From Shinella sp. H4-D48 (GTDB lineage Bacteria; Pseudomonadota; Alphaproteobacteria; Rhizobiales; Rhizobiaceae): a stretch of DNA of 64,000 bases. Shown here one piece after another: positions 1,909-12,664 of the stretch. Both the position numbers and the translations under genes were made by a program. The stretch spans positions 744,001 to 808,000 of the forward strand of contig NZ_CP093338.1 of assembly GCF_022637395.1 (NCBI RefSeq). Reading direction: 5' to 3'. The stretch's first letter is position 1. The number at the start of each line of letters is the position of its first letter. The notes beneath the pieces are model-generated. The model saw nothing but the letters and a program-made list of their open reading frames with translations, ran no database searches and was not told the DNA's origin.

Positions 1909-2589
1909 CTAGCGGATAGCACTCTTTCTGAGAACATTTTCCATGAAGCTCCTGATGAACGCCGCAGATACTGCTTTTTCCTTCAGGACGGCGATTGTCT
2001 GGGGAATTTCAGAAAACGCATCGGGCAACGTGCGAAATGCAGGATCAATGTGGGCCGCGGGTTCGAGAGACTGCCTCAGTCCCGCGGCCGCATCGCATTC
2101 TCCAGCCTTCAGTTTTTCGATCGCGGCCAAAGGGGTTTCGGCATAAACGATCGTTGCATGTTTCGCTTGGCGTTCGATCTCTTTTGTGTAGGCGGCACCT
2201 CGAGCGGTCGCTATCCGACGGCCGGAAACATCCACGTCCGCCACAAACCGGGCATCCGATATCGCCGGAACAAGGTAGGTCGCGGTTACAAAAGCATAGG
2301 GCGGGGAAAAAGCGAACCGATCCGTGCGGGACGGATCTGCGGCGATCAGGGCAATATCCCATTCGTTCAGGTTCGCCGACTCCAGGATTGCCGCCGCCGA
2401 TCGGTATTTTATCACCGAAAGCGCGCAACCGAGTTCCTCTGCCAAGGCGTTTGCCATATCGACACTCGGCCCGGACGGCACTCCCGTGCGTTCATCGATA
2501 CGGACAAGGGCGGCATTGCTGCCGTTCACCGCCGCCCGGAGTGTACCGGTCGGCGCAAGTTCGGCGAGCACGCTTTCCGAAGCCACCAT
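1909..2589 (-). CDS. Substrate-binding-fold protein (SBP_bac_3-like) without signal peptide
   Basis: The 226-residue product resembles family 3 solute-binding proteins: a GTLRAAVNG-type first strand near residue 15, GPSVDMANALAEELG, and the DRFAFSPPYAFVTATYLV hinge segment. It starts MVASESVLAELAPTG and shows no signal sequence or lipobox, so it would stay in the cytoplasm. It begins 4 bases after the aldolase gene and is last in the catabolic minus-strand operon. Some proteins of this fold are enzymes (cyclohexadienyl dehydratase PheC), so a catalytic or sensing role is possible. Function not assigned. Confidence 0.7.
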   Translation of the reverse strand: MVASESVLAELAPTGTLRAAVNGSNAALVRIDERTGVPSGPSVDMANALAEELGCALSVIKYRSAAAILESANLNEWDIALIAADPSRTDRFAFSPPYAFVTATYLVPAISDARFVADVDVSGRRIATARGAAYTKEIERQAKHATIVYAETPLAAIEKLKAGECDAAAGLRQSLEPAAHIDPAFRTLPDAFSEIPQTIAVLKEKAVSAAFIRSFMENVLRKSAIR

Positions 2590-2592
2590 TCG

Positions 2593-3363
2593 TCACGCCC
2601 GCCTCGAAAACCTGCCAGCCAAGGCTTCTGCACCGCGCGCCAGCACGGCGACATCGACGCCGACTGCCGTGAACAGCGTTCCTAACTCCATGCAGCGGGC
2701 GGCGAATTTTTCATCGGGCGTGAGAATCCCTGCCGGTTTTCCGAGCCTATTGAGCAGCCCGATGGCCTTTTCAATGGCCTCGACCACTTCTGGGTGACCG
2801 GGTTGGCCGGGATACCCGAAGCTGGCCGCCAGGTCCGCCGGTCCGATGAAGATGCCATCTACGCCATCGATCGACGCGATGGCTTCGATATGCCCCATCG
2901 CTTCGCGCGTTTCGACCTGGACGAGAACGCAAAGCTCCAGCGCTGCCTGCTGCGCGTAATTCTTCACCCGGCCAAAGCGCGTAGCCCGCGTCAGCGCTGA
3001 AACGCCCCTGATGCCTTCCGGCGGATAGCGTGTTGCTTCGACCGCAGCCTTGGCTTCCGCCGCGTTTTGAACATAGGGGATGAGCAGCGTCTGGACCCCG
3101 ATATCCAGAAAGCGCTTGATCAGGACGGGATCGTTGACGGCTGGCCGCACGATGGGCGCAACGTCATAGGCTGCCACGGCCTGCAACTGCGGCAAAACCG
3201 TCAGCACGTCGCTCGGGGAATGCTCCGTGTCGAACAGCAACCAGTCGAAACCAGCCGGCGCGACGATCTCCGCCGCATAGCTTCCCGGAAGCCCGCACCA
3301 GAGGCCGAGCTGGCTTTGGCCTGCGCGCAGCTTCGCTTTGAATTTATTCACAGGAATATCCAT
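2593..3363 (-). CDS. hpaI: HpcH/HpaI-family class II aldolase
   Basis: A 256-residue protein of the HpcH/HpaI family, which splits 4-hydroxy-2-oxo acids into pyruvate and an aldehyde. Residues matching the E. coli HpaI active site are present: His48 in FDTEHSP, Arg73 in IVRP, Glu151 in VQVETREA and Asp177 in [10 protein letters not shown]. The ATG at 3363 is preferred because GTGAGG lies just upstream; a GTG at 3375 is in frame. It follows the hydratase gene by a few bases in the same operon. In homoprotocatechuate breakdown HpaH hydrates and HpaI cleaves, so the pair probably works in sequence here. The exact substrate is inferred. Confidence 0.85.
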
Positions 3364-3371
3364 CTGGCACC

Positions 3372-4154
3372 TCACAGGAAAGACACGCCGATGGACCCGA
3401 CAGGACCGTAGTCGGCCTGTATCACATCGCCGGCAGCGATATCGACAGGGCGGGTGAACGAGCCGGCAAGGACGATCTGCCCCTTCTTCAGGCCGCCGCC
3501 AACAGCATGCAGCTTGTTGACGAGCCAGGCGATGCCGGCCGCCGGATGGCCCATGATCGCCGCTGAAACACCCGACTCCTCGATAATGCCGTTCTTCGAC
3601 AGGGTCGCCCCCACCCAGCGGATATCGATATCCATGGGGCGAATGACACGGCCCCCGACCACGATAGCGCCGAACGCCGCATTGTCGGCGATCGTATCGG
3701 TGATCGCCCGCGGCACCTCGGTCCGGTAGTCGATGATCTCGAGTGCCGGCACGACAAATTCCGTCGCGCGCATGACGTCGTAGATCTGGATACCCGGCCC
3801 CGAGAGATCCTCGCCCATGATGAACGCCAACTCGACTTCAAGCCGCGGCTTTATGAAGAGATCCGCTTTGATCTGCGCTCCGTCGTTGTAGAGTGCGTCG
3901 TCCAGAATGACACCGTAGTCAGGCTCCGTCATCTTGGACGCCATCTGCATCGCACGGGAGGTAAGACCGATCTTGTGGCCGACGATCCGGGCACCACGGG
4001 AGATGCGCGACTGTGCCCAAAGTGCCTGAATACGATAGGCGTCCTCAAGGTCGAGATCGGGATAGGTCTTGCTGGGCTGCACGATCGGCTTTCGCTCGGT
4101 CTCTGCTTTCAATATGGCGTCTGCAGTCGCCTGACGTTGCTCTTCGGTAATCAT
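3372..4154 (-). CDS. hpaH: HpaH/MhpD-family 2-oxo-hept-4-ene-dioate-type hydratase
   Basis: A 260-residue protein of the fumarylacetoacetase-fold hydratase family, close in length to E. coli HpaH. Visible family segments include [16 protein letters not shown], the metal-ligand region [15 protein letters not shown], and [16 protein letters not shown] C-terminal strands. These enzymes add water to 2-hydroxy-2,4-dienoates produced after meta ring cleavage. The gene lies between the ring-cleavage dioxygenase and the aldolase with short spacers, and GGAG precedes the ATG. It is odd that this meta-pathway enzyme is paired with an intradiol dioxygenase. Confidence 0.85.
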
Positions 4155-11137: not shown

Positions 11138-11169
11138 ACTGCCGGCTTTCAGAATGAGAGGAGAACCTC

Positions 11170-11619
11170 GTGAGCCTGATCTATGTCCTGAACGGTCCCA
11201 ACCTCAACCTGCTCGGCAAACGCCAGCCCCATATCTATGGTCATGAAACGCTTGCCGATGTCGAGGCGGACTGCTCCAAGCTGGCAGCCGAACTCGGTCA
11301 CGATATCCGTTTCCACCAAAGCAACAGGGAATACGAGATCATAGACTGGATCCATGAAGCGCGCGAGGACGGCGCGGGCATCGTCATCAATCCGGCCGCA
11401 TTCACCCACACTTCGCTCGCCATTCTCGATGCCTTGAACACATTCGAAGGCCCTGTCATCGAAATTCACATCTCCAACGTCCACAAGCGCGAAAGCTTCC
11501 GGCATCACTCCTTCGTTTCCCATCGGGCCGACGGCGTGATTTGCGGGCTCGGCACCGAGGGCTACCAGCTCGGCATCCGCCGGGTCGCCACGTTGATCAA
11601 ATCCGCAGAGAAGAAGTGA
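11170..11619 (+). CDS. aroQ: 3-dehydroquinate dehydratase, type II
   Basis: A 149-residue type II enzyme that interconverts 3-dehydroquinate and 3-dehydroshikimate. The family residues are in place: the [13 protein letters not shown] lid with Arg18, Tyr23 in HIYG, Asn74 in VINPAAFTH, His100 in EIHISN, and Arg107/Arg111. [11 protein letters not shown] has Tyr where the family usually has Gly. The GTG start at 11170 has AGAGGAG upstream. In this operon it would serve quinate use, between the dehydrogenase and the TIM-barrel enzyme. Confidence 0.92.
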
Positions 11620-11626
11620 GCTCGCA

Positions 11627-12664
11627 ATGACCGCCCCTGTGAAACTGGCCGTGCTCGGAGCCGGCCTCATTGGAAAACGACATATCGAGCACGTCGCCCG
11701 CGAACCGGAGGCGGTGCTCAGTGCCGTGGTGGACCCCACGCCTGCCGGCGAGGCGATAGCCAGGGAAGCCGGCGTGCAGTGGTTCGCCAGCTTTGCCGAC
11801 ATGATCGCCGTCGATCGGCCCGACGGTATCATCGTGGCGACCCCCAATCAGGTCCATGTGAAGAACGGTCTCGAAGCCATAGAGGCCGGCATTCCGGCCC
11901 TGATCGAAAAACCGCTCGCCGACGACATCGCGTCCGGCGAACGGCTGATCGCCGAAGCGCACGCGAAAGGAGTGCCGCTCCTGACCGGCCACCATCGCCG
12001 GCATAATCCGATGATGCGCAAAGCCAAGGAAATCATCGACAGCGGGCGGCTCGGACGAGTGCTGGTCGTCAACGCGATGTTCTGGCTTTTCAAGCCTGAC
12101 GACTATTTCGATATCGACTGGCGCCGGCAGGCTGGCGCCGGGCCGGTCTTTCTGAACCTCATCCATGACATCGACAATCTTCGGTATCTGTTCGGTAACA
12201 TCACTGCCGTTCAGGCGCGGGAATCCAATGCGGTACGCGGGAATGCGGTCGAGGAAACGGCCGTGATCCTGATTGAATTCGAGAGCGGTGTTCTCGCAAC
12301 CGCATCCGTCTCCGACGCCGTCGTGGCGCCCTGGAGCTGGGAGATGACAACAGGGGAAAACCCGGTTTATCCGAAAGTGGACGAAGCCTGCTACGTCATC
12401 GGCGGAACGCACGGCTCCCTTGCCATTCCGTCACTCGAAATCTGGCGCAATCCCGCCAAGCGCAGCTGGTGGGAGCCCTTTGAGAAGGAACAGGCTGAAT
12501 ATGTTCCCCAGGACCCGCTCGTCCTGCAGATCAGGCAGTTCTGCAAGGTCATCAGAGGTGAGGAACAACCGCTTGTCAGCGGCTTAGAAGGCCTGCAGAC
12601 GCTCAAGGTGATCGACGCCGTTAAAAGATCGGCGAAGTCGGGAGAGCGCGTCCTGTTGAGCTGA
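11627..12664 (+). CDS. Gfo/Idh/MocA-family NAD(P)-dependent oxidoreductase
   Basis: A 345-residue oxidoreductase with the Rossmann loop GAGLIGKRHIEHV at residues 9-21, the EKPLAD motif with its active-site Lys, and a C-terminal alpha/beta domain with VFLNLIHDIDNLRYLFG. Relatives act on myo-inositol and other cyclitols or on sugars. It starts 7 bases after aroQ and ends the plus arm. A role as an extra cyclitol-acid dehydrogenase is inferred from context. Confidence 0.85.
   Translation: MTAPVKLAVLGAGLIGKRHIEHVAREPEAVLSAVVDPTPAGEAIAREAGVQWFASFADMIAVDRPDGIIVATPNQVHVKNGLEAIEAGIPALIEKPLADDIASGERLIAEAHAKGVPLLTGHHRRHNPMMRKAKEIIDSGRLGRVLVVNAMFWLFKPDDYFDIDWRRQAGAGPVFLNLIHDIDNLRYLFGNITAVQARESNAVRGNAVEETAVILIEFESGVLATASVSDAVVAPWSWEMTTGENPVYPKVDEACYVIGGTHGSLAIPSLEIWRNPAKRSWWEPFEKEQAEYVPQDPLVLQIRQFCKVIRGEEQPLVSGLEGLQTLKVIDAVKRSAKSGERVLLS

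Follow-up and report, generated by a model that had tools for sequence, protein, structure and literature searches.

Quinate, shikimate and gallate esters abound in the roots on which rhizobia and agrobacteria live. The described systems closest to the gene island reported here are the homoprotocatechuate (4-hydroxyphenylacetate) pathway, the gallate pathway, the conversion of quinate and shikimate to protocatechuate, and hydroxyquinol 1,2-dioxygenase. HpaH and HpaI, of the first of these, require a 2-oxo acid bearing a double bond. Intradiol cleavage yields 4-oxalomesaconate from gallate, 2-hydroxymuconate from pyrogallol and 3-carboxymuconate from protocatechuate. The window analyzed is the 64,000-nucleotide stretch C2:744001-808000 of the 4.77 Mb genome of Shinella sp. 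H4-D48, and the island occupies positions 1909-12664 of it. That the island is one catabolic unit, apparently co-regulated and with a distinct subfamily of intradiol dioxygenase, is well supported by sequence comparison. A quinate-like plant acid is probably converted to an aromatic acid, most likely gallate, whose ring is opened by an unusual enzyme, a combination outside known pathway maps. No title or abstract among the open-access papers listed describes such a gene set.

All of the enzymes claimed for the island by an earlier, sequence-only reading were found, pointing outwards from a GntR gene. The left arm (minus strand) carries SBPc, HpaI, HpaH and the dioxygenase, and the right arm (plus strand) carries GntR, a triose-phosphate isomerase (TIM)-barrel enzyme, an ATP-binding cassette (ABC) importer, AroE, an HpaF-like protein, AroQ and a Gfo/Idh dehydrogenase. 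The features, with their supporting matches (PDB, Protein Data Bank; E, expectation value), are:

1909..2589, minus strand: SBPc, cytosolic homologue of family-3 solute-binding proteins (Pfam SBP_bac_3, 43 bits)
2593..3375, minus strand: HpaI-type class II pyruvate aldolase (TIGR02311, 391.1 bits, cut-off 368.8; PDB 2v5j, E 1.5e-94)
3372..4154, minus strand: HpaH-type 2-oxo-ene-dioate hydratase (TIGR02312, 356.4 bits, cut-off 351.5; PDB 2eb4, E 1.7e-79)
4176..5069, minus strand: intradiol dioxygenase, Gly83/Gln251 subfamily (Pfam Dioxygenase_C and Dioxygenase_N; residues; tree)
5102..5120, minus strand: putative operator AATAATCGATTAT with TTGACA (-35-like), dioxygenase arm
5255..5275, plus strand: second putative operator AATAATCGTTTAT with TTGACA, ahead of GntR and the right arm
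5321..6043, plus strand: GntR/FCD regulator, started at the first ATG of its open reading frame (Pfam GntR, 47.8 bits; FCD, 56.8 bits)
6040..6855, plus strand: TIM-barrel enzyme, kin to 3-dehydroshikimate dehydratase QuiC1 and to Lmo2234 (sequence; AlphaFold/Foldseek)
6909..7577, plus strand: ABC permease 1, polar amino-acid type (open reading frame)
7588..8238, plus strand: ABC permease 2 (open reading frame; homologues in other loci)
8275..9099, plus strand: solute-binding protein (Pfam SBP_bac_3, 121 bits)
9118..9879, plus strand: ABC ATPase (NCBIfam GlnQ/EhuA-like, under cut-offs)
9901..10755, plus strand: AroE-family quinate/shikimate dehydrogenase (PRK12549, 446.6 bits, cut-off 235; PDB 3jyo, E 8.6e-71)
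10769..11137, plus strand: distant HpaF/CHMI-type tautomerase (Pfam CHMI, 73 bits, above its cut-off; PDB 1otg, E 7e-4)
11170..11619, plus strand: AroQ type II 3-dehydroquinate dehydratase (TIGR01088, 188.1 bits, cut-off 169.85; motifs)
11627..12664, plus strand: Gfo/Idh/MocA dehydrogenase (Pfam)

The dioxygenase start, giving 297 amino acids, was chosen according to its orthologues; a 333-amino-acid reading frame opens further upstream. Overlapping reading frames suggest co-translation of HpaI with HpaH and, where the GntR stop meets the TIM start, of GntR with the TIM-barrel enzyme. The HpaF-like protein reached 30 bits with its NCBIfam model, under the cut-off of 215.

Gene presence elsewhere was scored by tblastn with chosen identity thresholds (e.g. 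30% for the TIM-barrel enzyme, 26% for AroE, 60% for HpaH) in 80 loci, the best of 554 confirmed matches to the dioxygenase profile; these are at-least figures from a sample that leans to close relatives. The same gene set recurs in other genomes: an HpaH orthologue was present in 63 of the 80 loci, nearly always with HpaI (60), the TIM-barrel enzyme (61) and GntR (61). AroQ accompanied it in 54, an AroE-family gene, the permease and the binding protein in 51 each, SBPc in 49, Gfo/Idh in 45, HpaF in 39 and a QuiC1 homologue in 10, part of the absences being due to contig ends. Record titles of the HpaH loci name Rhizobium, Sinorhizobium/Ensifer, Shinella, Neorhizobium, Mesorhizobium, Bosea, Methylobacterium, Aureimonas, Microvirga and Paracoccus, and agrobacterial plasmids also bear island genes. 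Positions 1909 and 12664 are the ends of the conserved cluster, and three loci (L046, L047, L048) keep the gene order with differing flanks. A small core, TIM-GntR facing dioxygenase-HpaH-HpaI, is repeated in L066 and, with additions, in L118 and L127. Three other genomes tagged with the same genus in one sample gave no match to the window dioxygenase at E 1e-130, and the island therefore looks accessory. The 17 loci without HpaH comprise 16 titled Bradyrhizobium and one short contig (L108).

The two arms are separated by a 251-base intergenic region that holds two copies of one site, ahead of the dioxygenase and ahead of GntR. Within 450 bases upstream of the dioxygenase, at least two sites occur in 65 of 75 non-Bradyrhizobium loci, one in 7 and none in 3 (L060, L061, L139), counts that derive from a consensus drawn from the same loci with up to two mismatches allowed, include four genomes entered twice (L046/L080, L047/L085, L048/L101, L049/L116) and are inflated by kinship. 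A plain base shuffle gave 0.0055 sites per stretch, and 0 of 16 Bradyrhizobium loci had a site in the same 450 bases. The sole mismatch-free match in the window's own genome is the island, and one more place (C1:3118814) has a single mismatch. Regulator and operator are both kept in L067 and L071, where the neighboring genes are demethylases. GntR would act on this putative operator, and with the site ahead of both arms the island is apparently co-regulated. The suggestion that the arms might respond to unrelated signals, which the sequence-only reading gave as grounds for abandoning its proposal, was not borne out. The shared site also offers a direct handle for finding the effector.

The closest solved relatives of the island dioxygenase are hydroxyquinol-type 1,2-dioxygenases, and it is 39-43% identical to two hydroxyquinol-type homologues in its own genome. 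Tyr164, Tyr197, His221 and His223 (1tmx numbering), which we take to be the iron ligands, are conserved. In all 51 subfamily members Asp83 is replaced by Gly and Val251 by Gln, and in 47 of them Phe224 by Ala. Together they make up a single clade (FastTree support 0.89), and Asp83 is present in each of the 16 remaining tree sequences, among them the PDB entries. This residue is presumably the one in the substrate pocket of hydroxyquinol dioxygenase that holds the third hydroxyl, so its loss speaks against hydroxyquinol and makes room for a carboxylate. Assignment as a hydroxyquinol enzyme was rejected, as the sister D-type sequences retain Asp83 and the island type lacks it. The intradiol dioxygenase recognized earlier is thus refined to a distinct subfamily near the hydroxyquinol dioxygenases. 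By eye, genes that we take to encode short-chain dehydrogenase/reductase, BKACE-like and reductase-like proteins adjoin the dioxygenase in D-type loci L036, L041 and L043.

HpaH and HpaI lie close to solved E. coli-type enzymes (PDB 2eb4 and 2v5j) and score above their equivalog cut-offs, so a 2-oxo acid is expected as substrate. On chemical grounds, the two would be usable after an intradiol cut solely if the ring carries hydroxyls on three neighboring carbons; 3-carboxymuconate, without a 2-oxo group, fits them poorly. Since such a ring, cut intradiol, yields the same kind of 2-hydroxymuconate, HpaFHI need not imply homoprotocatechuate. The genome also encodes a second HpaH (76%) and HpaI (59%) pair (C2:538566-539342; L152:9567-11122), beside which an IclR-type regulator, a branched-chain-type ABC importer and esterase-like genes were seen by eye. 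This pair was set aside, no dioxygenase being recognized adjoining it.

On the supply side, the best PDB match of AroE is a quinate/shikimate dehydrogenase (3jyo, presumably from C. glutamicum), and the catalytic motifs of AroQ are kept, with few exceptions, in 53 loci; together these make 3-dehydroshikimate a likely intermediate. Residue 193 of the importer binding protein is Asn in each of the 50 loci compared, whereas amino-acid binders carry Asp at this position, which is consistent with a ligand without an amino group. Quinate (C7H12O6) less four hydrogens and one water is gallate (C7H6O5), so the conversion takes two oxidations and one dehydration, exactly what AroE, Gfo/Idh and AroQ would supply.

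We propose that the importer would take up quinate or a close relative, which AroE would oxidize to 3-dehydroquinate and AroQ would dehydrate to 3-dehydroshikimate. Gfo/Idh would then oxidize a second hydroxyl to give a diketone that is a tautomer of gallate, the TIM-barrel enzyme serving as an isomerase, in the aromatizing step or in the step just before it. The Gly83 dioxygenase would open gallate between C3 and C4 to 4-oxalomesaconate directly, and HpaF, or a linked GalD-type tautomerase, would interconvert the tautomers of this product. HpaH would hydrate it and HpaI would cleave the hydrate to pyruvate and oxaloacetate. GntR would govern the left and right arms alike by way of an operator present twice. 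Gallate and 4-oxalomesaconate are the best reading of the intermediates, at about an even chance. That the island is one regulon degrading a quinate-type cyclitol acid through gallate falls slightly short of even. Only tentatively do we put forward the complete scheme: a full bacterial route from quinate through gallate to pyruvate and oxaloacetate that uses no extradiol enzyme, in which gallate arises by double oxidation of quinate and is cut by a new intradiol subfamily, HpaH and HpaI are recruited as 4-oxalomesaconate hydratase and 4-carboxy-4-hydroxy-2-oxoadipate aldolase, and quinate and O-demethylation arms are swapped under one regulator. Gene content, conservation, the shared site, the subfamily and the supply modules are read from sequence; the substrates, the order of reactions and GntR binding we infer.

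Variants of the island speak to the aromatic intermediate. On two Agrobacterium plasmids, out of six plasmid stretches, the dioxygenase-HpaH-HpaI-SBPc core has no TIM gene with it and adjoins LigM, a vanillate/3-O-methylgallate demethylase (854 bits in CP048549 and 822 in NZ_CP048562; cut-off 580). Both loci carry two operator sites, and NZ_CP048562 has an additional DesA-like demethylase (548 bits, under the cut-off of 800). In L137 the neighbors are a PobA-like hydroxylase (459 bits, under the cut-off of 539) and FolD and PurU homologues. The 4-oxalomesaconate tautomerase GalD provides a second line of evidence. In two Bradyrhizobium metagenome-assembled genomes (L126, L134) and in L169 (G387), the dioxygenase lies 2.1-3.3 kb upstream of GalD, followed by LigJ-like and LigK genes. 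GalD (532 bits, cut-off 440) and LigK (412, cut-off 304.5) of L126 exceed their cut-offs and its LigA and LigB pass; the three stretches also hold LigI-like and LigC-like genes and LigAB, the LigI-, LigC- and LigJ-like genes being named by eye, and PcaGH was not found in them. Members of one group of GalD orthologues flank the island, on either side, in 5 of the 63 HpaH loci (L087, L097, L106, L110, L111; 48-53% identity without a threshold, whereas a 50% threshold leaves 2 of 63), with 504-517 bits in the three scored, all above the cut-off. The gene runs off the end of the stretch in L106 and L111, and linkage in L106, L110 and L111 is probably one event. Across 247 Rhizobiaceae genomes, 7 of the 10 that have the dioxygenase and 15 of the 237 that lack it encode this group (p 1.7e-6); counted by genus, the figures are 5 of 7 and 11 of 102 (p 6.5e-4). 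Common descent and genome size weaken these p-values. For a control paralogue the counts are 1 of 10, the one being the genome it was taken from, and 10 of 237. The LigM variants that replace the quinate arm, together with the 4-oxalomesaconate tautomerase linked in some relatives, point to gallate.

The window's own genome has two GalD-family genes, which were set aside since neither adjoins the island. One 4-oxalomesaconate tautomerase-family gene (C2:422633-423649; L167) lies, by eye, beside LysR-type and NMT1-type ABC genes, and its orthologue, together with a LysR gene, adjoins the island in L087, L097, L110 and other relatives. In G526 the dioxygenase (C2:1344328-1345215) and a GalD homologue (59%; C2:1353895-1354896) are about 9 kb apart.

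Several observations weigh against gallate as the intermediate. The AlphaFold model of the TIM-barrel enzyme (predicted local distance difference test score, pLDDT, 93.1) finds QuiC1 (5hmq) as its best Foldseek match, followed by IolI and Lmo2234, and the enzyme retains the aligned residues of QuiC1 that we take to bind metal and to act in catalysis, in an alignment that leaves out L121 and L123; its score with the NCBIfam QuiC model is only 25 bits. The likeness to QuiC1 predicts a dehydratase making protocatechuate, and the part given to the enzyme in the gallate scheme is the weakest point of our explanation. HpaI normally yields aldehydes and not a ketone such as oxaloacetate. In 18 of the 63 HpaH islands no Gfo/Idh gene was detected, some of these islands being ended by a contig edge. 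Among the 17 loci without HpaH, PcaF stands beside the dioxygenase in 15 and PcaH in 11. The supply modules (TIM/AroQ, LigM, PobA-like) could all yield gallate but could all yield protocatechuate too, which is also a product of LigM. GalD was not found in the examined flanks of 58 of 63 HpaH loci, and its group is missing from 3 of 10 dioxygenase genomes. The five GalD-bearing islands retain HpaF as well, and in the window genome the GalD-group gene lies about 325 kb from the island.

One alternative is a protocatechuate route, in which the TIM-barrel enzyme would be an ordinary dehydroshikimate dehydratase and the dioxygenase a single-subunit protocatechuate 3,4-dioxygenase, with HpaH and HpaI processing its product somehow or serving another substrate. 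Beyond the QuiC1-like residues, LigM, the PobA-like gene of L137 and the pcaF/pcaHG neighborhoods are all possible protocatechuate contexts, and the space freed by loss of Asp83 could hold its carboxylate. We nevertheless regard this route as unlikely. Its ring-cleavage product would offer HpaH and HpaI no 2-oxo group, and PcaGH, absent from the island, is encoded on contig C1 (44% and 53% by tblastn to curated PcaG and PcaH), so that protocatechuate already has an outlet. A full-length QuiC1-like gene is likewise absent from the island and present on C1 (646 bits, under the cut-off of 1200). Ten of the 63 islands lie near a QuiC1 homologue, which would duplicate the TIM-barrel enzyme, yet retain their own TIM gene, which suggests that the TIM branch runs alongside the one through protocatechuate. 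A more doubtful alternative is another ring with three adjacent hydroxyls, such as pyrogallol, which would be cut to 2-hydroxymuconate and carried by HpaF, HpaH and HpaI to pyruvate and malonate semialdehyde. Its intermediates come nearest to the usual substrates of HpaH and HpaI (one carbon shorter, with a secondary alcohol), in keeping with the scores of both enzymes above their cut-offs, but no decarboxylase was recognized in the island, and the linked demethylases and GalD indicate carboxylated rings. Least probable is a parallel route in which AroE, AroQ and a dehydratase-type TIM-barrel enzyme turn a more hydroxylated quinate analogue into gallate by virtue of one extra hydroxyl, which balances without Gfo/Idh, suits the dehydratase-like TIM-barrel enzyme and would explain quinate-type gene duplicates beside or away from the island, but for which we know of no abundant natural substrate.

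The claim that neither PcaGH nor an extradiol enzyme is present holds for the island and, for extradiol enzymes, extends further: the genome gave no match to the LigB superfamily (PF02900) at E 1e-5, a search that did not cover enzymes of the vicinal oxygen chelate type; for PcaGH it fails on C1. No LigK-type aldolase was matched in the genome at E 1e-40. On C1 (L045:3530-18230), genes for QuiC1-like, PcaG, PcaH and, by eye, PcaB proteins adjoin another AroE-TIM pair, after which come genes for two KstD-like flavoproteins and a 208-amino-acid protein; this set has the appearance of a distinct route for cyclohexane carboxylates. In 4 of the 17 HpaH-less loci, AroQ and the dioxygenase are accompanied by KstD-like flavoproteins that resemble ChcC2 less strongly, and desaturation of 3-dehydroshikimate may be a further path to gallate. 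Bradyrhizobium-type loci also have, after AroQ, a conserved 217-amino-acid protein that matched no NCBIfam model (L126:8318-8971; also L134, L135, L150 and, by eye, L052).

Other island genes vary or have wider kin. A remnant is all that is left of Gfo/Idh in L047 (same genome as L085), and AroE is present as pieces in L119 and L129; both genes may be dispensable or replaced in such islands. Gfo/Idh was rejected as a LigC/PmdC equivalent, since PmdC ranks low and other dehydrogenases score higher. The nearest PDB entries of SBPc are amino-acid binders, sensor domains and cyclohexadienyl dehydratases, and no signal peptide was seen on reading its sequence. A cyclohexadienyl-dehydratase-like function was rejected: the alignment is weak, Ser stands by eye at the position of what we take to be the catalytic Glu, and the fold model is poor, with a mean pLDDT of 51.0. 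SBPc-like homologues outside the island (L068:11980-12660, L070:11863-12822) lie beside major facilitator superfamily, AraC or LysR genes, which suggests that the family extends further.

If the gallate route is true, an intradiol route would close a gap in rhizobial and agrobacterial aromatic metabolism, explain a gene set seen on plasmids and second replicons, and provide a new enzyme for gallate use or 4-oxalomesaconate production. Labels in plasmid records, which annotate the genes as dioxygenase or catechol 1,2-dioxygenase, HpaH and HpaI, would then need correcting. One report (PMC10512348) describes A. niger as still growing on gallate after loss of seventeen candidate ring-cleavage genes and thus offers no precedent for intradiol gallate cleavage.

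The earlier view is upheld that this is one catabolic island whose parts match none of the textbook routes as a whole and whose ring-cleavage chemistry is likely to be unusual. With the homoprotocatechuate pathway (HpaDEFGHI), the island shares equivalog-level HpaH and HpaI and a distant HpaF, whereas its dioxygenase is intradiol and not extradiol, and HpaD, HpaE and HpaG were not recognized in it. With the route from quinate and shikimate to protocatechuate (Qui/Qsu, Pca), it shares AroE, AroQ and a QuiC-like TIM barrel, but lacks PcaGH, has an extra Gfo/Idh and places HpaFHI downstream. With the gallate pathway (GalA/DesB with GalB/LigJ, GalC/LigK and GalD), it would share the proposed intermediates gallate and 4-oxalomesaconate, and GalD is linked in some genomes; in contrast, its own genome has no detected LigB-type dioxygenase or LigK, and the island hydratase and aldolase belong to other families. 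With hydroxyquinol 1,2-dioxygenase (1tmx, 3n9t), the island dioxygenase has in common the layout of N- and C-terminal domains and the Tyr2His2 iron ligands, and its subfamily is set apart by Gly83, Gln251 and, in most members, Ala224.

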